Below are positions 1 to 64,000 of a stretch of DNA of 64,000 bases, one piece after another (the first letter of the stretch is position 1; each line of letters opens with the position of its first letter). Made by a program: the position numbers and the translations under genes. The notes beneath the pieces were generated by a model. It saw only the letters and a list, made by a program, of their open reading frames with translations, made no database searches and was not told where the DNA came from. The stretch lies in contig NZ_JACIBY010000016.1 of the NCBI RefSeq assembly GCF_014195535.1, positions 62,001 to 126,000 of the forward strand. Reading direction: 5' to 3'. The stretch is from Runella defluvii (GTDB lineage Bacteria > Bacteroidota > Bacteroidia > Cytophagales > Spirosomataceae).

Positions 1-912
1 AGTAAAGAAGGAGAAGGCTCTACGTTTAGGATTGAACTTCCCGTTACGTATAGGGATGATGTTTCTATCGAGGGAGAGTATCCACCATCGCCGTTGGAGT
101 GGCCTAGTGTTGAAAATAAAATAGAAAAAACAAGCCTCAAGCATGACGTAGATTTGCGGCTGTTGGTGGTGGATGACAACGCCGATATTCGTCAGTACAT
201 TCGGTCGATTTTTGCGAAAGATTATTGGGTTGTGGAGGCTGAAAACGGAAAAATTGGCATCGAAAAAGCCCTTGAAATGACCCCAGACATCATTATCAGC
301 GATTTGATGATGCCCGAAATGGACGGCTTTGAATTTTGTAAACGACTTAAATCAGACGAAAAAACGAGCCATATTCCCATCATTATGCTATCGGCCAAGG
401 CCAATCCCGAAAGTAGAATTGAAAGCTGGGAATTAGGCGCCGACGATTACTTGTTGAAGCCCTTTCAATCGGAAGAAGTGCGGGTGCGGGTTCAAACGTT
501 ATTGGAAAAACAAGCCCGCCTGAGAACGTATTTTAGCGCGGCGGTTGGCACAGAGAAGCCTGTAACGGAAACCGAAGAAGCCTCAAAGGAACGAGGTTTT
601 TTACGTAAACTCTACGCGCTTGTAGAACAACGGATGAGCGATTCCGAGTTTACGGCCGAGCTTTGTGCCAAAGAAATGGGAATGAGTCAAAGTCAGTTGC
701 TCAGAAAATTGAAGGCGCTCACCAACCAGACCATCAACGAATACATTCGAGATTTTCGTTTGCAGCGGGCAGCAGATTTATTATCTCAAAATGAGGCAAC
801 AATTTCGGAAATAGTCTATGAAGTAGGGTTTACGAATCTGTCTTATTTTACCAAAATGTTTAAAGAAAAATACGGAAAACTTCCCAGTGAGTTTTCGACG
901 CAGGAAGAGTAA
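1..912 (+). CDS. Hybrid two-component regulator (HTCS), C-terminal part
   Basis: The reading frame is open from base 1, so the gene starts outside the window. The first codons read GEGSTFRIELP, the end of a histidine-kinase ATPase domain (G2 box). A complete receiver domain follows, with VVDDN and the phospho-acceptor in ISDLMMPEMDG, then an AraC-type helix-turn-helix (YEVGFTNLSYFTKMFKEKYG). This order is the HTCS architecture, in which one inner-membrane protein senses a glycan fragment and activates a nearby PUL. It closely resembles the complete regulator at 59756-62524. A TTG at 94 could be mistaken for a start, but the kinase tail upstream is in the same frame. The partner locus is probably the downstream gene at 1062 or one left of the window. 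Family is certain; target is not. Confidence 0.93.
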   Translation, partial: SKEGEGSTFRIELPVTYRDDVSIEGEYPPSPLEWPSVENKIEKTSLKHDVDLRLLVVDDNADIRQYIRSIFAKDYWVVEAENGKIGIEKALEMTPDIIISDLMMPEMDGFEFCKRLKSDEKTSHIPIIMLSAKANPESRIESWELGADDYLLKPFQSEEVRVRVQTLLEKQARLRTYFSAAVGTEKPVTETEEASKERGFLRKLYALVEQRMSDSEFTAELCAKEMGMSQSQLLRKLKALTNQTINEYIRDFRLQRAADLLSQNEATISEIVYEVGFTNLSYFTKMFKEKYGKLPSEFSTQEE

Positions 913-974: not shown

Positions 975-1016
975 AAATGCTGAATATGTGTTAATAAATG
1001 CTGAATATATGTTAAG
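975..1016 (+). repeat. 21-bp tandem direct repeat, candidate regulator site
   Basis: Two adjacent 21-bp units (975-995 and 996-1016) differ at only two positions. Each contains AATATGTGTTAA or AATATATGTTAA. The repeat lies between the HTCS gene and the secreted protein at 1062. A period of 21 bp is two helical turns, which fits tandem binding by an AraC-type domain. A similar 21-bp-period repeat follows the other HTCS gene at 62535. The role is inferred. Confidence 0.55.
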
Positions 1017-1061
1017 CCTGTTTTGAGATAGTCATTTATCTTTACTGGCAAATTAAAACAC

Positions 1062-4000
1062 ATGAAAAACTTTATATACAAAAGCACCATTTTTGGATGG
1101 ATAGTGCCCTTCATTTTGGGATTAGGAAGCGTGGTTGCGTCTCCTGTAAAAGCATCAAAAGTTAATACGCCGCCTACCATTACGGCCAAAACCATTTCGG
1201 TACCTGGAGGAAGTGGGGGAATTGAAAAAGAGATTGCCACGGCACTCGATGGCGAATCGGACAATTTGGAAATAACGGCTTCTAACCTACCTGCTAATAT
1301 AACCCTGACCAACATTGAGAATTCGGATGGAACGGTCACGGCACTCGTGAGTGTGGGCTGTTATGTGTCTGCGGGGTCGTATAGCGTAACGCTTACCGTC
1401 AAAGACCCCGAAGGTGCATCGGCTACCGATGTGTTGACCATCAATGTCACCGCCAACACCATGCCCGTATTAGCCTACGCCGCCACGGCATCGGTCAATG
1501 GCGGAGGAAGCCTCACGATTAATCCAACCGCTGGCCCGTCTGACAACTCAAATGATTTTACGGTAGGAGTTGATAACCAAGGGACGTTCACGGGCGATAT
1601 TGCTGTGGACCCAGTTACGGGCGTGATTACCATTACGAATGCAGCTCCCGTAGGTACGCACCAAATCACGATGAAAATTTCTGAAGCCTGCGAATTTGAA
1701 GAAACCGCTACGTTTGAATTGACCGTTACCAATACCAAACCCACCATTTTAGGGGCAACAATTAGCCGCCAACAGGGGACTTTGACGGGACTCAATGCGA
1801 CCATTGCAACTGTTAATGACGTTGAAACAGCAGCGGGAAGCCTCAGCGTGACCGCAACAACACCGCTTCCTTCTGGGATAAGTATTTCAGGGATTACCAA
1901 TGTGAATGGGACGATCAATGCCAATGTGCGGGCAAGTTGTTTTGCGGCAATTGGGAATAATACGGTCGAATTAAAGGTGACAGATGAAAATGGAGGAACC
2001 GCAACGGCCAATTTGATCGTGAATGTGACTGCAAATTCGCTTCCCACCATTACTTATGGTAATCAAACGGTCAATATGATGGGTGGACTGACTGTTAATC
2101 CTGCATCAGGCCCTTCGGACAATGGGGAGTTTGGTGCTATTACAATCACGGATGTAGATGGCTATACGGGCGATATCGACGTTGATTCAAATACAGGAGA
2201 AATATCCATCAGCAATGCTGCTCCTTTGGGAACGCATACCATTACGGTAAGAATTATGGATAACTGTGAAGTAACCAATACAACGACGTTTACCTTGACC
2301 GTTACCAACACCAATCCGACCATTAAAGGGACAGTAATCAGCCGCCAACAAGGTAGTGCGGAAACGGTATCGACGATTGCCAACGTAGATGATACAGAGA
2401 CGGCAAAAGGAAGCTTGACCGTAACGGCTACGACCGTTCCAACGGGTATTTCGGTGTCGAATATTACCAATACCAATGGCGTTATGAGTGCGATGGTGTC
2501 GGCGGGGTGTTATACCAATAGTGGAGAAAATACGGTGGTTTTGACCGTAAAAGATGGGAATGGAGGAACCGCAACGGCCAATTTGATTGTGAATGTGACG
2601 GCAAATTCGCTTCCAACCCTGAGTTACGCTAACAGCACAGTCAGTGTCGCAGGTGCAACAACGATTAACCCCGCTACTGGCCCTGCCGACAATGGCAGCT
2701 ACGGAGGGCTAACGATTGAAGACAAAGGTACTTTTACGGGAGACATCTCCATTGACCCTACTACTGCGGTGCTTTCAGTGAGTAATGCCGCTCCTCTGGG
2801 CGTACACACCATTACGGTGAAAATATACGACAACTGCGAAGAATATACTGAAACAAGTTTTACTTTGACGGTCGAAGGCTGTACGTCCACCCTAACGGCA
2901 GGGGCGGTAACCAATCCAACGACCTGCACAAGTCCAGTGGGAAGCATTGCTTTTACGACCAATTTGGCCAATGGTGATTATACGTTAAACTTTACGTCAA
3001 GTGCGGGAGCAACCACAAGTCCCCAACCTGTGAAAGTGGCGGGCGGCGCTTTTTCACTAGGAGGATTATTGGCGGGTACGTACAGTAACTTTTCGATTAC
3101 CTCATTGGGGTGTACAGCTTCGGCTATGTCATCTAAGGTCATTACGGCCAAAATCCCTCCTACGGCTACCTTAGCGGGTGGGAGTGAAGTTTGCCAACAA
3201 AGTTCGGCGCCCGTACTGACCTTTACCGCCAGCAATGGTAGCGCACCTTATCGTTTTGGTTATCGCATCAATGGTGGAAGTGTGTTGTATCTTGAGAGCA
3301 CGAGTGCCGTAGCCACACTCGCTCCTTCTACGCAGGTGGCAGGAGTCTTTACATACACATTAGAATCGGTCTCGGACGGAAACGGATGCAGTCAATCGCA
3401 AAGTGGTAGTGCAAAACTGACGGTCAATTACCGCGCTTCTGTTCCCCAAAATGTGTCTTTGTCAGTAGATGGCGTCAATGTGGCGGTGGGTGAAATCAAA
3501 GAAGTATGTAGCCTGTCGAGTGGAACTCCGTTGACATTTAATGCAACCTGTGCCGTGGGAGAAATAGTGCTTCATTCGGTGGATGGGGGGGAATATAGTG
3601 CGGGTATTCCCGTAGCCCTGGTTGACAATCAGTTTCACAATTACCGCGTGCGTTGCCGAAAATCCGACGGAACACCTTCCTGTATAGAGAGCGAATCGGG
3701 TGTTATGCGTCTAAAATTAGTAGCCATCCCTTCGGCTCCTACGGTCAGCTTGTCGCCAGAACGGAGCTGTAATCCTGCTGCAAGTTTTAGCGGTCAATCG
3801 ACCTGTGGAAGTTTAAGAACGATTTGGTACAATGCCACCACCAATGTGGCATTGCCGAGTTTACCAAGCACCGTTCCTACTGCAACGACGTCTTACTACG
3901 CCCGTTGTCAGACGGATAATGGTTGCGTGAGCGAAAAGAGCAACGTCGTGACGTTTACGCTCATTCCCACGCACATAGTCCCCGTGATTAGTGCGAGTCA

Positions 4001-5144
4001 GGAGATTGTATGTACAGGAACGACGGTGAAAGTGTCGGCCAACTGCCCCGCAGGAAGCACCACATTTTGGAACACAGGCGTAACCACGCCAAGCTTTGAG
4101 GTGTCGTTCAACAACATCACCAAACAAACCTACTGGGCGAAGTGCCTTTTTGAGGGCGGTTGCCAAAGTTTAGAGAGTATTCACAAAAATGTATATTGGG
4201 ATGCATTTGTGGTAACCTTAATCAACGTAGGTCAAAGCAAGTCGGCAACAAAGTCAACAAACAACCGCAGCGAGTGGGAATTGCAGTTTTTAACCCGCGA
4301 CGGTGGCCCCGACTTGGTAGCAAGTGCGCAGCAAAACCCAACTTTATATTTTGTCGAAAATCCTAACAAAACGGCGCCACGTTATTGGACAGTCAACGCC
4401 GATGCTTGTGCATTAGGTACGGAAGGTTCTTTGACTTTTGACCTGTCAACGACACCCGAAACAGGCGTGATTCAGTCGTATAACACCCACGAAAATACAG
4501 CACCATTTTTTATGTATGCCAACCGCGAGGGCTGGACGGAATTGTATTCCCCCAACCACCCTGCTTTCGGTTTTTACCTAGATAATGGGGCAGGAGGCAA
4601 TGTCTATGATGCAGGTTTGCCTAAAGGACTGTATAAATTGAGCGTTCGCTACTGGGATCAAAAAGGGCTTGGCCTTTACCCCGCAACGCGCAAACCGCAA
4701 GGCAACGTGCTTGCCTACCACGAATACTGGTTTAGAATCCAGTCGAAAGATGGGGTAGGAGTAGGAGCAGCGAGAACAGCGGAGAGCAGTGGGCAAGGGG
4801 CAAATGGCAAAGGGCAAGAGGCAATAGGTAAATGGCAAGAGGCAAATGGCAAAGGGCAGGGGTCGGATAACGAACAACAGCTAACCGATAACGGGTCTTT
4901 TGCTTCGGTCATGCCCAACCCTGTCACCAATGTTCTTCGCCTGAAGGTGCAAAACAGAAAGGGGCAAGTGGTGCAAACTACGTTGACGGATGCAACAGGT
5001 CGGGAAGTTTTACGCCGCCAATTTGTGCCTGAAACCAACACGCATCAAGAAGAGTTTGGCGTCAGCGAATTGCCAACGGGTATGTATTTCATGAAGGTGA
5101 CCACGCCTGAAAAAAGTGCATTGTTGAAAGTAGTGAAATTGTAG
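1062..5144 (+). CDS. Giant secreted Ig/cadherin-like repeat protein with T9SS sorting domain
   Basis: A 1360-residue exported protein. It has an N-terminal signal peptide (MKNFIYKSTIFGWIVPFILG), then about 600 residues of alternating beta-sandwich repeats. Recurrent phrases include NAAPxGTHxITVxI, FTLTVTNTxPTI and TANLIVNVTANSLP. Cys-containing Ig-like segments follow, then a module of about 200 residues shared with the next gene (VVTLINVGQSKS to YEYWFRIQSKDG). A Gln/Gly-rich linker is translated from a 7-bp DNA repeat. The last 80 residues are a T9SS type A sorting domain: SFASVMPNPVTNVLRL, then ELPTGMYFMKV and a basic end. No catalytic domain is visible, so it is probably a surface adhesin or structural protein. 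It is followed by a strong terminator and is transcribed alone. Confidence 0.85.
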   Translation: MKNFIYKSTIFGWIVPFILGLGSVVASPVKASKVNTPPTITAKTISVPGGSGGIEKEIATALDGESDNLEITASNLPANITLTNIENSDGTVTALVSVGCYVSAGSYSVTLTVKDPEGASATDVLTINVTANTMPVLAYAATASVNGGGSLTINPTAGPSDNSNDFTVGVDNQGTFTGDIAVDPVTGVITITNAAPVGTHQITMKISEACEFEETATFELTVTNTKPTILGATISRQQGTLTGLNATIATVNDVETAAGSLSVTATTPLPSGISISGITNVNGTINANVRASCFAAIGNNTVELKVTDENGGTATANLIVNVTANSLPTITYGNQTVNMMGGLTVNPASGPSDNGEFGAITITDVDGYTGDIDVDSNTGEISISNAAPLGTHTITVRIMDNCEVTNTTTFTLTVTNTNPTIKGTVISRQQGSAETVSTIANVDDTETAKGSLTVTATTVPTGISVSNITNTNGVMSAMVSAGCYTNSGENTVVLTVKDGNGGTATANLIVNVTANSLPTLSYANSTVSVAGATTINPATGPADNGSYGGLTIEDKGTFTGDISIDPTTAVLSVSNAAPLGVHTITVKIYDNCEEYTETSFTLTVEGCTSTLTAGAVTNPTTCTSPVGSIAFTTNLANGDYTLNFTSSAGATTSPQPVKVAGGAFSLGGLLAGTYSNFSITSLGCTASAMSSKVITAKIPPTATLAGGSEVCQQSSAPVLTFTASNGSAPYRFGYRINGGSVLYLESTSAVATLAPSTQVAGVFTYTLESVSDGNGCSQSQSGSAKLTVNYRASVPQNVSLSVDGVNVAVGEIKEVCSLSSGTPLTFNATCAVGEIVLHSVDGGEYSAGIPVALVDNQFHNYRVRCRKSDGTPSCIESESGVMRLKLVAIPSAPTVSLSPERSCNPAASFSGQSTCGSLRTIWYNATTNVALPSLPSTVPTATTSYYARCQTDNGCVSEKSNVVTFTLIPTHIVPVISASQEIVCTGTTVKVSANCPAGSTTFWNTGVTTPSFEVSFNNITKQTYWAKCLFEGGCQSLESIHKNVYWDAFVVTLINVGQSKSATKSTNNRSEWELQFLTRDGGPDLVASAQQNPTLYFVENPNKTAPRYWTVNADACALGTEGSLTFDLSTTPETGVIQSYNTHENTAPFFMYANREGWTELYSPNHPAFGFYLDNGAGGNVYDAGLPKGLYKLSVRYWDQKGLGLYPATRKPQGNVLAYHEYWFRIQSKDGVGVGAARTAESSGQGANGKGQEAIGKWQEANGKGQGSDNEQQLTDNGSFASVMPNPVTNVLRLKVQNRKGQVVQTTLTDATGREVLRRQFVPETNTHQEEFGVSELPTGMYFMKVTTPEKSALLKVVKL
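4791..4860 (+). repeat. Heptanucleotide minisatellite (10 x 7 bp) inside a CDS
   Basis: Ten consecutive 7-bp units of consensus DGGCAAR (GGGCAAG, GGGCAAA, TGGCAAA and so on). Because 7 is not a multiple of 3, three units make 21 bp, and the protein shows a seven-residue repeat of the form GQEAIGK / WQEANGK. It sits exactly in the linker ahead of the T9SS sorting domain. The same array occurs at 11422. Confidence 0.9.
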
Positions 5145-11938: not shown

Positions 11939-13573
11939 ATGAAAACAATGCGCTTATTTTGGTTTATTTTTCTTCTTGTTTCTCCGAGTCTTATTGCCCA
12001 AATCAATTGGGGAGAGTATTCACAAAGCTTTCCGCAGGGAGCGTTGGACAAACCAGAAACGGTGGCATTGATACTAACGATTCCTAAAACCAACAATTCG
12101 TTTTGGGTAACTCAGGAAAATAGTCCGCATTTTCTGTCCCTAGAAAAAGATTCTTCGTTCCGAAAAATTCGTGCTTCCAATGTCGTCGCTCGTACGACGT
12201 TTGACGATTCAAAGGCTCATTTTTTCTTGCATGGCGTCAATAAAAACAACGTCCAAGAGTTCGAGTTTCGCGTCATGGAATACCCCAGTCAACAGTTACT
12301 TGTTTCGTGGCAAAATATCGCTCAGTTGACGGACGAGGCATTGATAAAAAGCTCTGCGCTTCCACAAATGGCCTATTTGGGTGGCTATAAGACATCGTTG
12401 GGCAATGCCCTAATCGTGGATGTTCGCAAGAAGGGGGCAAAGAAAATAGCAGCCACTAGCATCGTGGCGTGGGAGACGATACGGCCTGCGGCAACGGGTA
12501 TTTTTACGTCCGAGAATCTGGATGTTTTTCTGCAAAAACTCCAATATCCATGGGCTCGCCCTACTTCAAAACATATAGTGAATTACTCGTTAGATAATCT
12601 TCAGTTACCTGCCAACAATGCTCATTTGATTTTTACCCTAAATGCGGAGATTTATACCAAAAATCAAGTCCAATACCAGCTCATGCACAACGACAGAATT
12701 GTTCGGCCGTGGCGCGACAACGAATACGACAACAGTTTTATCTGGCTCAAAGATTTTTCGTCAGGGCGGTATAAAATTCAGATTCGCTACGCCGTTCAAC
12801 CCCAACACGTTACTGAATACGCTTTTGAAGTAGCTCCTCATTGGTACCAAACATGGTGGTTTAAAACCGTCATTGCAGGCATCGGCATGGTGGTGGTTGG
12901 ATTGGGCGTTTTTATCTATTTGTTGATTCGTCAGCGGCGACGGACTCAACAAGAGATGGCCCACAAACAAAAACTCCAGTTGGAACTCAAGGCATTATAT
13001 GCACAACTCAATCCTCATTTTATTTTCAATGCCCTCAGCTCCATTCAAGGACTTATCAACCACCAAAATTTAAAGGGGGCTAATGATTATTTGGCGGATT
13101 TTGCCCAACTACTGCGCGAAACGCTGACCCAAAGTAGCCAAGAAGAAACCTCACTTTTTCAAGAACTACAAACCATGGAAACCTACTTAAAATTGGAACA
13201 GCTACGGTTTGGGTTTCGCTATTCTATGGAAGTCGATACACAACTGGATGTATATGCAACCAGCTTACCTTCCTTACTTTGGCAACCCTTGGTCGAAAAT
13301 GCCATCAAACACGGGATTTCGGTTTTGCAGGGAAAAGGGGTCATAAGCGTTCTATTTCAACAAAAAGGAGAGGCGTTGTGCTTAATAATTAGGGATAACG
13401 GGCAAGGTTTTGACACAAAAATACCAACAACGGGTTTTGGGTTAAAACTCACCAAAGAGCGAATCGCCCTGCTGAATCAACTCAACCATGCACAACCCAT
13501 TTCGCTCACAATCGAAACTCCCGCCGATTTGGGCACGCAAGTGACCCTCACTTTTAACCACTGGTTTGTATGA
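11939..13573 (+). CDS. LytS-family sensor histidine kinase
   Basis: A 544-residue membrane kinase. A signal peptide (MKTMRLFWFIFLLVSPSLIA) is followed by about 290 residues of periplasmic beta-rich sensor. One transmembrane helix lies near residues 308-330 (VIAGIGMVVVGLGVFIYLLI). The His_kinase (PF06580-type) domain has phospho-acceptor His360 in QLNPHFIFNALSSIQGLI. The ATPase N box is LVENAIKHG and the G box DNGQGFD. The sensor probably includes a Y_Y_Y-like beta domain ahead of the helix (SSGRYKIQIRYA). It overlaps the next gene by 4 bp (ATGA), so kinase and regulator are translationally coupled. It should phosphorylate the LytTR regulator; the signal is unknown. Confidence 0.9.
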   Translation: MKTMRLFWFIFLLVSPSLIAQINWGEYSQSFPQGALDKPETVALILTIPKTNNSFWVTQENSPHFLSLEKDSSFRKIRASNVVARTTFDDSKAHFFLHGVNKNNVQEFEFRVMEYPSQQLLVSWQNIAQLTDEALIKSSALPQMAYLGGYKTSLGNALIVDVRKKGAKKIAATSIVAWETIRPAATGIFTSENLDVFLQKLQYPWARPTSKHIVNYSLDNLQLPANNAHLIFTLNAEIYTKNQVQYQLMHNDRIVRPWRDNEYDNSFIWLKDFSSGRYKIQIRYAVQPQHVTEYAFEVAPHWYQTWWFKTVIAGIGMVVVGLGVFIYLLIRQRRRTQQEMAHKQKLQLELKALYAQLNPHFIFNALSSIQGLINHQNLKGANDYLADFAQLLRETLTQSSQEETSLFQELQTMETYLKLEQLRFGFRYSMEVDTQLDVYATSLPSLLWQPLVENAIKHGISVLQGKGVISVLFQQKGEALCLIIRDNGQGFDTKIPTTGFGLKLTKERIALLNQLNHAQPISLTIETPADLGTQVTLTFNHWFV

Positions 13574-14316
13574 AAGCAGTACTCATCGACGACGAGCCTC
13601 ACAACTTGAGCAATTTAAAGTCGCTTCTGGCGACGTACTGCCCACAAATTGAGGTATGTGCAGTAGCCAAAAATGCCGAAGAGGGCAAAAAAGCCCTTTA
13701 TAAATACCAACCTGATCTTCTTTTTCTGGATATTCAAATGCCCCAACAGGATGGTTTTGAACTGCTTCGTAGCCTTACCGAATACGATTTTGAGGTAATT
13801 TTTGTGACTGCTTACGACCAATATGCCATCAAAGCGATGCGTTTTTCGGCGGTGGATTACCTACTCAAACCCGTCGCGATTAGTGAATTACAGGTCGCCG
13901 TTGAACGAGCGATTAAACAACGTGAGTTAAAAATTCAGAACCAACAAATCGGGTATTTGATGAAATGGCTCACCTCTCAAGCCCAAAAAGAAGAGCTACA
14001 AATTGCACTTTCGACCTTGCAAGAAACCCGTTTTGTCAAAACCAGTGAAATCATTCGTTGCGAATCGTCCAACAATTACACCACGTTTTTTTTGAATGAA
14101 GGCACCACGTTGGTCGTTAGCAAACCCATTTACGAATACGACGACCTTCTGAGCAGTCATGGTTTTTTGCGCTGCCATCAGTCGCATTTGGTCAATAAAT
14201 CCTTCATTAAAAGTTGGAAAAAAGAATACGGCGATTTTTTGCAACTCGCCGATGGTTCGCAAGTACCCGTGTCGCGTGGCAAAAAAGACACCATCAAGAG
14301 GGCGTTGAACCTCTGA
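13570..14316 (+). CDS. LytTR-family response regulator
   Basis: A 248-residue DNA-binding regulator. The N-terminal receiver has the acidic pair in LIDDEP, phospho-acceptor Asp54 in LFLDIQMPQQDGFE, the Thr region FVTAYD and Lys in YLLKPV. The C-terminal LytTR domain (about 145-245) shows EIIRCESSNNYTTFFL and FLRCHQSHLVNKSFI. It acts as output for the kinase encoded just upstream with a 4-bp overlap. LytTR proteins usually bind direct repeats upstream of targets. The nearest candidate target is the DUF4932-like gene 52 bp downstream, probably in the same operon. Confidence 0.93.
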   Translation: MKAVLIDDEPHNLSNLKSLLATYCPQIEVCAVAKNAEEGKKALYKYQPDLLFLDIQMPQQDGFELLRSLTEYDFEVIFVTAYDQYAIKAMRFSAVDYLLKPVAISELQVAVERAIKQRELKIQNQQIGYLMKWLTSQAQKEELQIALSTLQETRFVKTSEIIRCESSNNYTTFFLNEGTTLVVSKPIYEYDDLLSSHGFLRCHQSHLVNKSFIKSWKKEYGDFLQLADGSQVPVSRGKKDTIKRALNL

Positions 14317-26482: not shown

Positions 26483-26561
26483 TTGTTGTTCATTCTTTCT
26501 TTAACCTATCTATTAAAAAGTATGAGTTAGATTCTATCACTTTCCTTTCCCCAAAAAGAAA

Positions 26562-26587: not shown

Positions 26588-26685
26588 AGTACTACTCTGA
26601 AATGTGTTTACCAGACACATTTAGCCGTTACGGCGAGCAATTGTTTTTGTCATTTCTACCAAAAAACAACAAAACGAACAAATGT

Positions 26686-59726: not shown

Positions 59727-59755
59727 ACTCTTTTCTCAAATGAGGTGAGATGATA

Positions 59756-62524
59756 ATGAAAAACTACATAAAACTACTTTTCTTCTTTGTAATTGCAGTT
59801 TATGGCTTTCCTAAGCAGGGAATTTCTCAAGAAATTGTTTTGTCGGAAGACCAAAAGATTCCGAAAAACATTACTTCTTCCATTGAAATTTTAAAGGATT
59901 CGACGGGCAAACTGACGTTGGAGCAAGTGACTGCGATGAACTTCAAAAAGTCGCCCAAAGACCACATTATTTTTCCCTATTCTGATGATATTTATTGGGT
60001 GCGATTTTCCCTAAAAAATACCAATTCTACCAATAAAGACTGGATTTTGGTATGGACAAACCCTTTGGTGGAGCAGTTGGATGTTTATATTTCGGACACG
60101 ACGGGACAAAAATTTTCGCATAAACAACAGAAGATTTTGACGGTTGAGAAAGAGAAAAAACTCATCGACCAAGACCCGACCTTTACCGTTGACCTTAGCC
60201 CCAACCAACGCAAAAACATCTACGTCAAAGTAACCAGCAAACGCGGCCACTACATGACTTTGCGGTTGCATTCAGAAAAAACATACTATAAATCAAAACT
60301 AGAGGGATATGCCAGCCAAAGCTTCTTCAACGGTTTGGTTATTTTTCGTTTGTTTTTGGTACTTACGCTTAGTTTGTTCATCATCAACAATTTTGCATTT
60401 AGGCTATATTCGCTGCATACGGTCATCAAGACGTTTGCTTTTTGGGGGTATCTCAATATCGCTGGCCCTTGGTTTACGGACGACCCCGACGTTGCTAAAA
60501 AAATTGATTTTTTGTTCTATAACTCCGTGACTCTGGGCGGCGGGATTTTTGTGTATTTTACCCAAATCAAGGGGAAGTTTTCGAAAATTCACACCCTCAT
60601 TGCCATGAGCATTATTGGGCTGACCATCTTCGAGAGTATCATTGTTTTTGTTGATTATCAGTGGTATTGGCTCAAGTTGGGGGTGTATAGCATCATCATT
60701 TCGGCAACGTATTTTTCTGGTTTGTACCTCTATTCCATTGTCAAAAAAATCGCCATTGAAAAATACTACGCCATTCCTTTTATATTGGGGATGATTAGCT
60801 ACGCCTTGTTGTACATTCGACTGTTGGGCTGGATTGAATACGAACCCGTGTATTCGATTGCGTATTTGTTGTTTTTGGGAGAGATTTTCGTTTTTGTCAT
60901 TTTCCTCGGGGGAATTTTTCGTTCTGCGGAGCAAAAACTGCATTTCAGCATCGAGCAAAACAGCCGTTTGAAAGAACTAGATAACCTCAAAACCAGCTTC
61001 TTCGCCAATATTTCTCACGAATTTCGGACGCCTTTGACGCTGATTTTGTCGCCCCTCAAAGACCTGCGGCGAGAATTTCCAGAACGGGATATTTTTCGAG
61101 TAATGCAACAAAATGCCGAACGATTGTTGGCGCTGATCAATCAATTGTTGGATTTGAGCAAACTGGAGGCGGGGAAAATGGACATGCAGTTGCAAAGAAG
61201 TGACTTAGCCCAGTTTCTAAATTATTTGTTTGCCTCCTTTGAATCGCTCGCGCAAAACAAGAAAATTCTTTTTCAGTACGAGCAAAATCAGTTGAGTTAT
61301 ATAGCTGATTTTGACCAAGATAAAATTGAAAAGATCGTGACCAACCTCCTCTCGAACGCGTTTAAGTTTACGCCCCCAAGTGGACGAGTACAGGTACGGG
61401 TTGATTTCCAAAAAACGCAACTTCTCCTGAAGGTGCAAGACTTTGGTATTGGGATTGACTCACAGCGTTTGCCACGCATATTCGACCGTTTTTACCAAGC
61501 TGACAGCGGCGATAACCGTACGTACGAAGGAACGGGCATTGGGCTGGCGTTGGTGAAAGAGTTGGTACAAGTGATGAAAGGAAGCATCCATGTAGAAAGT
61601 AAAGTAGGCGAAGGCTCTATTTTTACGGTGATGTTGCCGATGTTGGAAGAGCGTGCAGCGGCCAATGATCAGGCGGTTGTACCCATAAATATGCCAAAAG
61701 AACAAGCGCTTTTGGTAGAAGAATTGCCGATGGAAACCCCCACCAATGAAGGCAAAGAGGTGTTGTTGATTGTGGAAGATAACCCCGAACTGCGGGCGTA
61801 CATACGGGAAATTTTTGCCCCCCATTACTATTTATTAGAAGCAAGCGACGGACAAGAAGGGTTGGAAAAAGCCATTGAAGAACTGCCCGACGTTGTCATT
61901 TGTGATTTGATGATGCCTCGGCTCGACGGTTTTGGATTGTGTAAAGCCATGAAACAAAATGAACTCACGAACCATATTCCGATTGTGATGTTGACGGCCA
62001 AAGCGACCCTAACCGACCGCTTGGAAGGCTTGGAACTTGGCGCTGACGATTATTTGTCGAAGCCTTTTGATCGGGAAGAGTTGCAGGTGAGGGTTCGGAA
62101 TTTGATTAGACAACGTCAGATTTTACTTCAAAAATATACGAAAAACAAGGCGTTCGAACGGGCTCAGCAAAGCCAAATGGAGGAAGAAATAGCGCTTAAA
62201 AATCGCATCAGTGATGAGCAATTTATGCAACGCTGCCACGAAGTACTCATGCAACATTTGGGAGAAAGTGGCTTTGATGTGGAGCGTTTTGCGGAGACGA
62301 TGAACGTTTCGTCGGTGCAGCTTCGCCGCAAGTTGAAAGCCAGTACGGGGCAGGGGGTGATTGAATATTTGCGGAATTTTAGACTCGAAAGAGCCGCCGA
62401 AATGCTCGCCAATCAGACCGCAACCGTGTCGGAAGTTGCCTACAAAGTGGGCTTTGAAAGCCTGTCGTATTTCTCAAAAGTATTTTTTGAAAAATACGAA
62501 AAAAGCCCTTCCGAGTGGCCATAA
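59756..62524 (+). CDS. Hybrid two-component regulator (HTCS) with 7TM DISM sensor
   Basis: A 922-residue one-protein phosphorelay. The ATG at 59756 is preferred to 59750 because GAGGTGAG then has normal spacing. A signal peptide is followed by a periplasmic 7TMR-DISM-like domain (to about residue 180) and about seven membrane helices (about 190-385). The kinase has His421 in ANISHEFRTPLTLIL, N box KIVTNLLSNAFKF and G boxes GIGID and GTGIGLALVKEL. The receiver has VEDN and Asp717 in ICDLMMPRLDGFG. The AraC-type output is at the end (VAYKVGFESLSYFSKVFFEK). Sensors with 7TM-DISM differ from the Y_Y_Y-type of gut HTCS. It is the probable activator of the hydrolase run just upstream, or of the genes downstream. 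Confidence 0.93.
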   Translation: MKNYIKLLFFFVIAVYGFPKQGISQEIVLSEDQKIPKNITSSIEILKDSTGKLTLEQVTAMNFKKSPKDHIIFPYSDDIYWVRFSLKNTNSTNKDWILVWTNPLVEQLDVYISDTTGQKFSHKQQKILTVEKEKKLIDQDPTFTVDLSPNQRKNIYVKVTSKRGHYMTLRLHSEKTYYKSKLEGYASQSFFNGLVIFRLFLVLTLSLFIINNFAFRLYSLHTVIKTFAFWGYLNIAGPWFTDDPDVAKKIDFLFYNSVTLGGGIFVYFTQIKGKFSKIHTLIAMSIIGLTIFESIIVFVDYQWYWLKLGVYSIIISATYFSGLYLYSIVKKIAIEKYYAIPFILGMISYALLYIRLLGWIEYEPVYSIAYLLFLGEIFVFVIFLGGIFRSAEQKLHFSIEQNSRLKELDNLKTSFFANISHEFRTPLTLILSPLKDLRREFPERDIFRVMQQNAERLLALINQLLDLSKLEAGKMDMQLQRSDLAQFLNYLFASFESLAQNKKILFQYEQNQLSYIADFDQDKIEKIVTNLLSNAFKFTPPSGRVQVRVDFQKTQLLLKVQDFGIGIDSQRLPRIFDRFYQADSGDNRTYEGTGIGLALVKELVQVMKGSIHVESKVGEGSIFTVMLPMLEERAAANDQAVVPINMPKEQALLVEELPMETPTNEGKEVLLIVEDNPELRAYIREIFAPHYYLLEASDGQEGLEKAIEELPDVVICDLMMPRLDGFGLCKAMKQNELTNHIPIVMLTAKATLTDRLEGLELGADDYLSKPFDREELQVRVRNLIRQRQILLQKYTKNKAFERAQQSQMEEEIALKNRISDEQFMQRCHEVLMQHLGESGFDVERFAETMNVSSVQLRRKLKASTGQGVIEYLRNFRLERAAEMLANQTATVSEVAYKVGFESLSYFSKVFFEKYEKSPSEWP

Positions 62525-62534
62525 ACGGCATTTT

Positions 62535-62692
62535 GTCAAAAATGAGTTAAAGAAAGTCAAAAATGAGTTAATAAAAATTGAAAGCTCCTCTGAGGGGCTT
62601 TTTTTTTTGTTCAAAATGAGTTAAAGAAAGTCCATTTTGAGATAACACCTGTGTCTCACAAATCCTGAATTTTGGGTATCACTTTAACTCAT
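62535..62692. repeat. Cluster of ATGAGTTAA motifs with 21-bp direct repeat
   Basis: GTCAAAAATGAGTTAA occurs at 62535-62550 and 62556-62571, a 21-bp period. A third copy of ATGAGTTAA is at 62616-62624, in a stretch bounded by TCAAAATG and CATTTTGA. An inverted copy (TTAACTCAT) lies at 62684-62692, 8 bp before the next start codon. These are candidate binding sites for the AraC domain of the HTCS just upstream. Confidence 0.6.
62581..62608 (+). terminator. Intrinsic terminator of the HTCS gene
   Basis: AAAGCTCCTC and GAGGGGCTTT form a stem with one G-T wobble and a very short loop, followed by at least eight T. It lies between copies of the ATGAGTTAA motif. Confidence 0.85.
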
Positions 62693-62699
62693 CTCAATC

Positions 62700-63443
62700 A
62701 TGAAAAAACTACTTGTATTATTATTCGCGGCAGCGATGATGCTCGGATGTACCAAAGACGAAAACGTAGCACCTACTTACACGGGGGCGTCGCAAAACAT
62801 CGGAAACGGTAAGGCGTATTCTTGGATTAAATTCACGACCGACAACAAGCCTTCTTCTTTGGGCTTCACCATGACCAAAGGCGCGCTCGACAACCTACCG
62901 CACGGAGGAATTGCGCTGGTGTTGAGTCTGCCCAACGAAGCGGTGGGGCAAGTGCCTTTTGACCACATCATGCTCGACTACCTGCACACGGGACACGAGC
63001 CGCCAGGCACCTACGACGTAGCCCACTTTGACATGCACTTTTACATTCAGGCGCTTGCAGAGCGGAAGGCAATTCCTGCGTATCCAGTAGCTCCTGCCAA
63101 ATTTGACAACCTCCCTGCGGCGGGCTACATTCCTACCAACTACATCCGCCTCCCTGCGGGTGTTCCTGAAATGGGGGTTCACTGGGCCGACCCTGCGTCT
63201 CCAGAATTATCAGGAAAGGGCAAGTTTACCGAAACGCTTATCTATGGTTCGTACGATGGCAAAATGACATTTATTGAACCAATGGTAAGTCACGAGTTTT
63301 TGAGCAGCAAGCCGAACTTGACCAAATCAATGCCGCTACCGACCAAGTTTGCAAAGGCGGGCTACTATCCGATGAAATACAGCATCAAGCAAGTGGGCGA
63401 CGACATCGTGGTGAGCCTCGACGACCTAATGATGATGCAATAA
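62700..63443 (+). CDS. DUF5602-like lipoprotein
   Basis: A 247-residue lipoprotein with lipobox MMLGC (Cys17). The mature part resembles the TTHB210/DUF5602 type of secreted protein: GKAYSWIKFTTDNKPSSLGF, FDHIMLDYLHTGHEPPGTYD, then HFDMHFYIQ, MGVHWADP and FIEPMVSHEFL. The several conserved His residues suggest metal binding, as in those families, but no activity is established. It stands between the HTCS terminator and a long hairpin and so is transcribed alone. Inverted copies of the ATGAGTTAA motif lie immediately upstream, so it may be a direct target of the HTCS. No link to xylan is obvious. Confidence 0.7.
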   Translation: MKKLLVLLFAAAMMLGCTKDENVAPTYTGASQNIGNGKAYSWIKFTTDNKPSSLGFTMTKGALDNLPHGGIALVLSLPNEAVGQVPFDHIMLDYLHTGHEPPGTYDVAHFDMHFYIQALAERKAIPAYPVAPAKFDNLPAAGYIPTNYIRLPAGVPEMGVHWADPASPELSGKGKFTETLIYGSYDGKMTFIEPMVSHEFLSSKPNLTKSMPLPTKFAKAGYYPMKYSIKQVGDDIVVSLDDLMMMQ

Positions 63444-63480
63444 CCAATCGTTTTTCAATACCCTACTCATAATCTTTCAT

Positions 63481-63545
63481 GGTAGAAAGGGAAGGAGGTT
63501 TAGGGAGCATTTGACGAAATGTTCCTACCTCCTTTTTCTACTACC
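63481..63545. terminator. Long hairpin after the lipoprotein gene
   Basis: GGTAGAAAGGGAAGGAGGT on the left pairs imperfectly with the arm CCTCCTTTTTCTACTACC (63528-63545); the inner part AGCATTT / AAATGTT closes around GACG. Probable terminator by position. Confidence 0.7.
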
Positions 63546-63579
63546 GATTGATGTTGAACTCATTTTAACTATTCTACCA

Positions 63580-64000
63580 ATGAAAAACTTATTTACACTT
63601 ACATTTTGGGTTAGTATCATAGCCAGTTTGAGTTCATTAGCCCAAACCCCCGATATTGATGTCAAATTTAATATGATTAGCATTCCCAATAATACTAGTG
63701 CAAGTACTACTTATGGAACATCTTTTGGCTTAGTTGCTTTAAGTAATGGTATGCCGAATAACGAGTTTACCATTGAAAACAGGGGGACTGGTACGCTTAC
63801 TATTTCATCGATTGACATCATTGGAACAGCGGCGAGTGATTTTACAGTCAGCAATTCGCCCAGCACTACACTTGCCCCCAATGCCACTACTACCTTAAGA
63901 ATTACCTTTAATCCATCCGTTGCAGATAGAAGATCAGCGACAGTTACTATCACCAGCAATGACCCAGACGAAAATCCTTTTAGGATTAATCTCTTCGGGA
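63580..64000 (+). CDS. Choice-of-anchor-D type secreted protein, 5' part
   Basis: The ATG at 63580 opens a frame that stays open to the window edge (140 codons seen). The signal peptide is MKNLFTLTFWVSIIASLSSL followed by AQ. The mature part shows the choice-of-anchor-D / ASPM-SPD-2-Hydin Ig-like repeat: FTIENRGTGTLTISSIDIIG, then FTVSNSPSTTLAPNATTTLR and FNPSVADRRSATVTITSNDP. Such proteins in Cytophagales are often large and end in a T9SS sorting domain, which lies outside this window. An inverted ATGAGTT-like motif (GAACTCATTTTAAC) is 11-24 bp upstream of the start. Confidence 0.8.
   Translation, partial: MKNLFTLTFWVSIIASLSSLAQTPDIDVKFNMISIPNNTSASTTYGTSFGLVALSNGMPNNEFTIENRGTGTLTISSIDIIGTAASDFTVSNSPSTTLAPNATTTLRITFNPSVADRRSATVTITSNDPDENPFRINLFG

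Follow-up and report, generated by a model that had tools for sequence, protein, structure and literature searches.

Tandem 21-bp repeats behind two HTCS genes of Runella defluvii are predicted operators of the adjacent regulators

Are the short repeats that follow two regulator genes of Runella defluvii the sites at which these regulators act? The 64,000-nucleotide stretch of DNA analysed here (contig NZ_JACIBY010000016.1, positions 62,001 to 126,000 of the forward strand; hereafter the window) contains the 3' part of one gene for a hybrid two-component system (HTCS) regulator, HTCS1, and a complete second one, HTCS2, and both are followed by repeats with a period of 21 bp. Our sequence analyses indicate that these repeats are very probably operators of the adjacent HTCS proteins, which is the best explanation for them. 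Bacteroidota genomes harbour up to dozens of HTCS genes, whose targets are mostly unassigned; with the operator located beside the gene of its regulator, target predictions become testable by sequence.

Both proteins harbour a sensor, HisKA, HATPase_c, REC and an AraC-type helix-turn-helix (HTH) domain (HTH_18) on a single chain, as expected of bona fide HTCS regulators. Domain searches matched the sensor of each to 7TMR-DISMED2 and yielded no Y_Y_Y match in either protein. At the position of the S/CHIP motif in the REC domain, HTCS1 has SHIP and HTCS2 has NHIP, and the recognition helix of the first HTH is QSQLL in HTCS1 and SVQLR in HTCS2. A structure comparison identified an HTCS protein (12aw) as the nearest solved chain and aligned the recognition helix with that of AraC. 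Helices of this AraC recognition type touch bases. Relatives of HTCS2 are found in R. limosa (94% identity) and R. aurantiaca (63% identity).

Each half-site is 17 bp long and reads TG-N7-WGWGYTAA, and the half-sites of a pair are spaced by exactly 21 bp. A single pair is present behind HTCS1, with half-sites TGCTGAATATGTGTTAA and TGCTGAATATATGTTAA identical at 16 of 17 positions, and two pairs are found behind HTCS2 (Table 1). A first-pass annotation of the window had described 21-bp-period repeats behind both genes, which proved to be real (978-1015 for HTCS1 and 62534-62571 for HTCS2), and had overlooked the second, promoter-proximal pair behind HTCS2. The 13-mer core that it considered related between the two genes is indeed shared, but as a common second box; the difference between the paralogues lies instead in the N7 box, with the letters CTGAA for HTCS1 and TTCAA or TCAAA for HTCS2. 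In a scan of both strands of the window with a generic half-site matrix (see below), the three pairs had the three highest scores (25.5, 22.4 and 20.1), the next one scoring 14.8, and ten shuffles gave no pair scoring at least 18. Between the two HTCS2 pairs, a hairpin followed by a T-run likely represents the end of the HTCS2 transcript, as read from the letters.

Table 1. Features of the HTCS1 and HTCS2 loci, in window coordinates
Feature	Position	Strand	Remarks
HTCS1 gene, 3' part	1..912	+	stop at 912; full length 919 aa, L039:8153-10912
HTCS1 operator, distal half-site TGCTGAATATGTGTTAA	978..994	+	TG, CTGAATA, TGTG, TTAA
HTCS1 operator, promoter-proximal half-site TGCTGAATATATGTTAA	999..1015	+	TG, CTGAATA, TATG, TTAA; 21 bp from distal half-site
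-7 box TATCTTTA behind HTCS1 operator	1037..1044	+	TAnnTTTG type; starts 21 bp past proximal half-site
Candidate HTCS1 target gene	1062..5144	+	1360-aa secreted protein; PKD/Ig-like matches, C-terminal sorting domain of type IX secretion system (T9SS) type
HTCS2 gene	59750..62524	+	924 aa; stop at 62524
HTCS2 operator, distal pair	62534..62571	+	half-sites 62534-62550 and 62555-62571
Terminator-like hairpin with T-run	62581..62606	+	between the HTCS2 pairs; read from letters, unfolded
HTCS2 operator, promoter-proximal pair	62608..62645	+	half-sites 62608-62624 and 62629-62645; 74 bp from distal pair
-7 box GAATTTTG behind HTCS2 proximal pair	62667..62674	+	starts 21 bp past proximal pair
Candidate HTCS2 target gene	62700..63443	+	247 aa; TTHB210-like domain; lipoprotein-like N-terminus by eye

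Two further matches in the first-pass annotation, a looser one before susC at 26519 and an inverted one before the gene at 63580 (63554, minus strand), did not hold up, as the window pair scan revealed no pair at either place. Nor was an operator pair found upstream of susC at 26602; instead of a susC/susD operon of a polysaccharide utilization locus, the two operators precede genes for a secreted protein and a TTHB210-like protein. Copies resembling ATGAGTTAA are present on the minus strand at 62683-62695 and 63554-63566, immediately before the start codons of the genes at 62700 and 63580. Neither copy forms an operator pair; that before 62700 is largely conserved in genomes G005 and G002.

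To determine how general these sites are, we used all 64 HTCS matches at E <= 1e-100 in 13 Runella genomes, including that of R. defluvii (G000), and 64 HTCS of the same family from other genera, among the matches listed (24 obtained as loci and the 40 that came next in the list). The 350 bp past each HTCS stop were searched, with 20 fixed stretches of G000 supplying 266 control genes. They replaced a first control set that gave 7 of 68 at lag 21; five of these seven came from loci retrieved because of their sites, and another was HTCS2 itself. Without any matrix, self-similarity of at least 14/18 at lag 21 was detected in 10 of 26 Runella clusters, with at most 2 at every other lag from 12 to 60, and in 16 of 64 loci of other genera (other lags, 3 or fewer). 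Because a lag-21 self-repeat alone also occurs at 11 of the 266 control genes, we built a matrix restricted to the conserved positions (TG and WGWGYTAA, with N7 unweighted), derived from 8 or 12 unambiguous loci of one set and tested on the other set, with a threshold of 12 for a generic pair; locus L066, whose half-sites were mis-registered, was excluded from later matrices. Cross-validated pairs at lag 21 were identified behind 34/64 HTCS genes of other genera and 29/64 of Runella, compared with 3/266 and 0/266 controls, and the same matrix gave 0 to 7 of 64 at lags 17-20 and 22-27. After collapsing at 70% domain identity, a pair remained in 21/39 cluster first members of other genera and 12/25 of Runella. 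Pairs start at a median of 61.5 bp past the HTCS stop (62 loci).

The proposal to scan the genome with the 13-mer fared differently on its own and in pairs. Across the genome, the bare 13-mer shows no enrichment (58 matches with at most one mismatch, against 61 for the reversed pattern), and neither does the two-copy consensus TGNGTTAA when 2 mismatches are allowed at 21-bp spacing (93 against 121 for the reversed control), although the latter scan nonetheless exposed two additional HTCS2-type blocks in G000. It is the lag-21 half-site pair that is enriched 3' of HTCS genes. Neither the bare 13-mer nor the lag-21 self-repeat is distinctive alone; the signal consists of the conserved half-site, the 21-bp lag and the location 3' of an HTCS gene taken together.

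The HTCS2 sites are conserved among orthologues. HTCS2 and its five intact-frame orthologues in the 13 genus genomes (63-96% identity; L064-L068) all have two pairs 3' of the stop codon, as does L069 (66% identity), whose frame contains stops. In the three distant orthologues the block starts 167-207 bp past the stop instead of 12 bp. The HTCS1 pair is retained in the orthologues of G002 and G005. Searching the 13 genomes with an HTCS1 model gave strong matches solely behind HTCS1 in G000, G002 and G005, and no wider HTCS1 regulon was found; the next-ranking sites are behind other HTCS genes with QSQLL or PSQLL helices (on contig C30 in G000, its G005 counterpart and C33 in G012), and the remaining matches are weak (E 0.003-0.09). 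Other HTCS paralogues are followed by repeats of equal 21-bp period with quite different letters.

The position of the pairs relative to putative promoters is equally regular. Among 31 representatives sharing less than 70% domain identity, a -7 box begins 20 or 21 bp past the proximal half-site in 20, while all other offsets from 0 to 45 total 3. The -7 box is found at 21 bp behind 15/15 promoter-proximal pairs and 0/11 distal pairs; these counts come from 14 site-bearing sources of 15 examined, picked by their site matches and not by the -7 box, and include L101, whose box is of the CG type, so that it does not strictly belong to the HTCS2 type. Because the -7 box sits at a fixed 20- or 21-bp offset, we infer that the proximal half-site substitutes for the -33 box, which would suit an activator that binds beside RNA polymerase. 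The distance between distal and proximal pairs at 17 HTCS2-type loci is 74 bp in 7, 75 in 1, 83 in 5 and 84 in 4, corresponding to 7 or 8 helical turns, and this second, in-phase pair upstream suggests cooperation. Distances of 72 bp (L211) and 53 bp (L081) are found for other HTCS types.

HTCS genes followed by their own operator could be regarded as self-annotated protein-DNA pairs. We lean slightly towards a reading of these pairs in which the variable box is determined by residues 1 and 5 of the first-HTH recognition helix, with little variation in the second HTH or the shared box. For the 31 representatives, similarity between boxes tracks that between helices after controlling for the remainder of the domain (partial Mantel r 0.46; 0/5000 permutations), compared with 0.02 for that remainder when the helix is controlled for. 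The two varying domain columns that best track the box are helix positions 5 and 1 (r 0.45 and 0.41; next 0.22), and A3C4 is present in at least one half-site of 9/9 representatives whose helix position 1 is Arg and of 1/22 of the others. Helices of the type R..H/Y/F go with NNAC boxes, Q/P..L/V mostly with CTG, CG or CCG, S/T/A..R mostly with TTC or CTC, D/E..R with CCTG or TCCG, and K..N with CGCC. HTCS1 (QSQLL, CTGAA) and HTCS2 (SVQLR, TTCAA or TCAAA) both match their classes. If this code holds, the operators and targets of many orphan HTCS would be predictable from sequence.

Several points weigh against these readings. By our score, 66 of the 128 HTCS genes have no pair, at least five of which (L070, L071, L087, L088 and L091) directly precede another HTCS gene. 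All 266 control genes were drawn from G000, and conservation of the HTCS1 pair concerns close species only. Outside the family the signal is weak, with a pair in 4 of 29 loci (other lags, 1 or fewer). In the class-level set, four loci have a lag-21 self-repeat (a fifth, a run of N, was dropped); the three readable helices are all of the Arg type, and the boxes of two of these three are AAAC or CAAC. The -7 box is lacking at 20 or 21 bp in 11 of the 31 representatives, and its pattern was relaxed from TAnnTTTG to NAnnTTT[G/A] after examples had been seen. As regards the code, nearest-neighbour prediction of the box reaches 3.55 of 5 when based on the rest of the domain, close to the 3.60-3.74 obtained with the helix (all pairs, 2.34). 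On the tree, Arg at position 1 needs to have changed approximately 4 times, and these changes are weakly supported, so that the independent-pair test (one supported pair, four in all) has no power. Finally, for L092 and L123, whose helix is SVQLR, the best-scoring pair reads GGACA/GCACA; a TTC-like repeat is found at +44, however.

Taken together, the enrichment at HTCS genes relative to controls, the strict 21-bp lag, the 20- or 21-bp distance to the -7 box, the conservation at HTCS2 orthologues (63-66%) and the co-variation of box and helix support the earlier suggestion that the repeats are operators for paralogous HTCS output domains, with two sites on one face of the DNA. We propose the following model. 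Each repeat block would be an operator through which the HTCS encoded directly 5' of it activates transcription. Upon phosphorylation, the AraC-type output domain, with its two HTHs, would bind each 17-bp half-site, the first HTH reading the paralogue-specific N7 box and the second HTH the shared WGWGYTAA box. Two monomers would thus sit 21 bp, or two helical turns, apart on the same DNA face. The bound regulator would cover the -33 region, with the proximal half-site 20-21 bp ahead of NAnnTTTG, and recruit RNA polymerase, so that it would activate rather than repress the gene for the secreted protein at 1062 in the case of HTCS1 and that for the TTHB210-like protein at 62700 in the case of HTCS2. 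The second pair 74-75 or 83-84 bp upstream in most HTCS2-type promoters seen would enable in-phase cooperation.

Other explanations were considered. The sites might belong to another regulator using 21-bp direct repeats, such as a LytTR protein, which would control the downstream gene independently of the HTCS. LytTR sites are likewise tandem repeats approximately 21 bp apart. The window encodes a LytS/LytR-like pair (His_kinase; REC and LytTR) at 11939-14316, with the LytTR regulator gene at 13570-14316, and small proteins that look like LytTR by eye are encoded behind several HTCS operators in relatives. However, the pair scan of the window revealed no 21-bp HTCS-type pair near the LytS/LytR-like genes, the sites, whose boxes are highly diverse, gather 3' of HTCS genes, and the variable box tracks the HTCS recognition helix, making this explanation very unlikely. 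Chance matches within AT-rich intergenic DNA would account for the lack of enrichment of the bare 13-mer and for the self-repeats at control genes, but they are contradicted by the enrichment, strict lag, conservation and -7 spacing of the pairs, and we regard their probability as negligible.

The HTCS2 block might also be a dispersed repeat that was duplicated and has no regulatory role. G000 contains three copies of approximately 115 bp, that of the window (C16) and those on C27 and C1; in each of the latter two, a distance of 74 bp separates the two 21-bp pairs. All three have matching layouts and share TTAATAAAAATT past the distal pair, and a terminator-like hairpin is common to C16 and C27. 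As this likeness in layout and letters extends beyond the half-sites, the block may have spread by duplication in G000. Nevertheless, the middle portion of the C1 copy differs from the other two, all three copies have a -7 box at 21 bp, the pairs of relatives are 74-75 or 83-84 bp apart in blocks shifted relative to the HTCS stop, and the same geometry is found in other paralogues with unrelated letters; a repeat devoid of function is thus highly improbable. No more credible is the view that the sites serve autoregulation of the HTCS or have a role at the 3' end of its mRNA, in termination or stability, as might be envisaged from their start tens of bases past the HTCS stop and from the terminator-like hairpins alongside them. 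The -7 box at its fixed distance faces the downstream gene and not the HTCS itself, none of the 22 HTCS 5' flanks that qualified (from 30 loci) contains a lag-21 self-repeat of at least 14/18, and the same operators are found ahead of genes lacking a neighbouring HTCS, such as at C1:20010-20127.

If the repeats are operators, the genes at 1062 and 62700 are the likely targets of HTCS1 and HTCS2, respectively. Genes similar to that at 62700 are found behind HTCS2-type operators adjoining HTCS2 in G000, G002 and G005, on other contigs in G001 and G006, and 26 kb away in G003, with likeness judged by N-terminal sequence and Pfam run on G000 proteins alone; the HTCS2-type operator is thus conserved ahead of related genes in several species. 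An NHL/SMP-30-like gene follows the C1 copy in G000, and near-identical genes are present behind sites in G005 and G002. By eye, proteins similar to that encoded at 62700 are also found behind HTCS genes of other helix classes (L220, L223 and L224). In other genera, a gene for a small LytTR-looking protein (approximately 110-140 aa, by eye) follows the operator at eight loci (L228, L192, L230, L195, L211, L186, L221 and L190), suggesting possible regulatory cascades, and one resembling an extracytoplasmic function (ECF) sigma factor, also by eye, at L215 and L217. These observations suggest that the HTCS proteins described here would control not only polysaccharide loci but also surface and secreted proteins, as well as genes that look like those of small LytTR regulators or sigma factors.

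Tandem HTCS genes were identified in three genomes (L091-L068 in G003, L087-L066 in G001 and L088-L067 in G006). The upstream member shares at least 70% output-domain identity with the HTCS2 orthologue and has no pair of its own; both partners may act on the same sites. In addition, L128 is an HTCS of 1362 aa with the helix SFQLR, 50% identical to HTCS2 across the matched C-terminal part, and is followed by an HTCS2-type operator at G011:C45:298218-298262. Sensors of unequal length thus share one operator class. Past the candidate HTCS2 target gene, a long hairpin-like stretch is present at 63478-63545, and, with up to 3 mismatches allowed, its 23-base core (63503-63525) recurs exactly once in the genome; this copy (C27:26315-26337) directly follows the operator copy on C27.

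How do these sites compare with known systems? The HTCS motifs predicted in Bacteroides thetaiotaomicron are direct repeats with an average of 21 bp between tandem sites, monomers were proposed to lie on one DNA face, and related HTCS have similar motifs, according to the available part of that report (Ravcheev et al. 2013, PMC3878776). The Runella sites are similarly direct repeats of approximately 21 bp for an AraC-type output domain. Unlike the motifs in that part of the report, those of Runella and its relatives are located 3' of HTCS genes, ahead of genes for secreted proteins, lipoprotein-like proteins and others, and the fixed -7 distance, the double pairs of some groups and the apparent dependence of the box on two helix residues distinguish our findings from its text. 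In Bacteroides, electrophoretic mobility shift assays showed that HTCS fragments comprising REC and the DNA-binding domain bind susCD promoters; a DNA recognition helix was predicted to lie buried against REC until the protein is phosphorylated, and an S/CHIP motif was described in REC (PMC11253607, 2024). The proteins described here have the same REC and AraC architecture, with NHIP instead of S/CHIP in HTCS2, and the available portion of that article contains neither operator anatomy nor a recognition code. PMC12125979 was discarded as a comparable system, as what is available of it concerns another regulator type. A literature search with partial coverage yielded no paper evidently devoted to the operators of HTCS proteins in Runella or the family to which it belongs, or to an HTCS residue code.

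The closest parallel outside HTCS proteins is AraC itself. At araI1-araI2 and other sites of the AraC/XylS family, half-sites are 21 bp apart in tandem and each monomer has two HTHs, as proposed here, and the proximal site adjoins or overlaps the -35 region, comparable to our proximal half-site. AraC is switched by a ligand at a sigma-70 promoter, whereas the regulator here is an HTCS and the promoter is of the Bacteroidota -33/-7 type. The kind of site is already known from the Bacteroides predictions, and the generic half-site, the fixed -7 spacing, the double pairs and the apparent code are apparently new. The setting and geometry thus represent apparently novel features, and the code possibly another.
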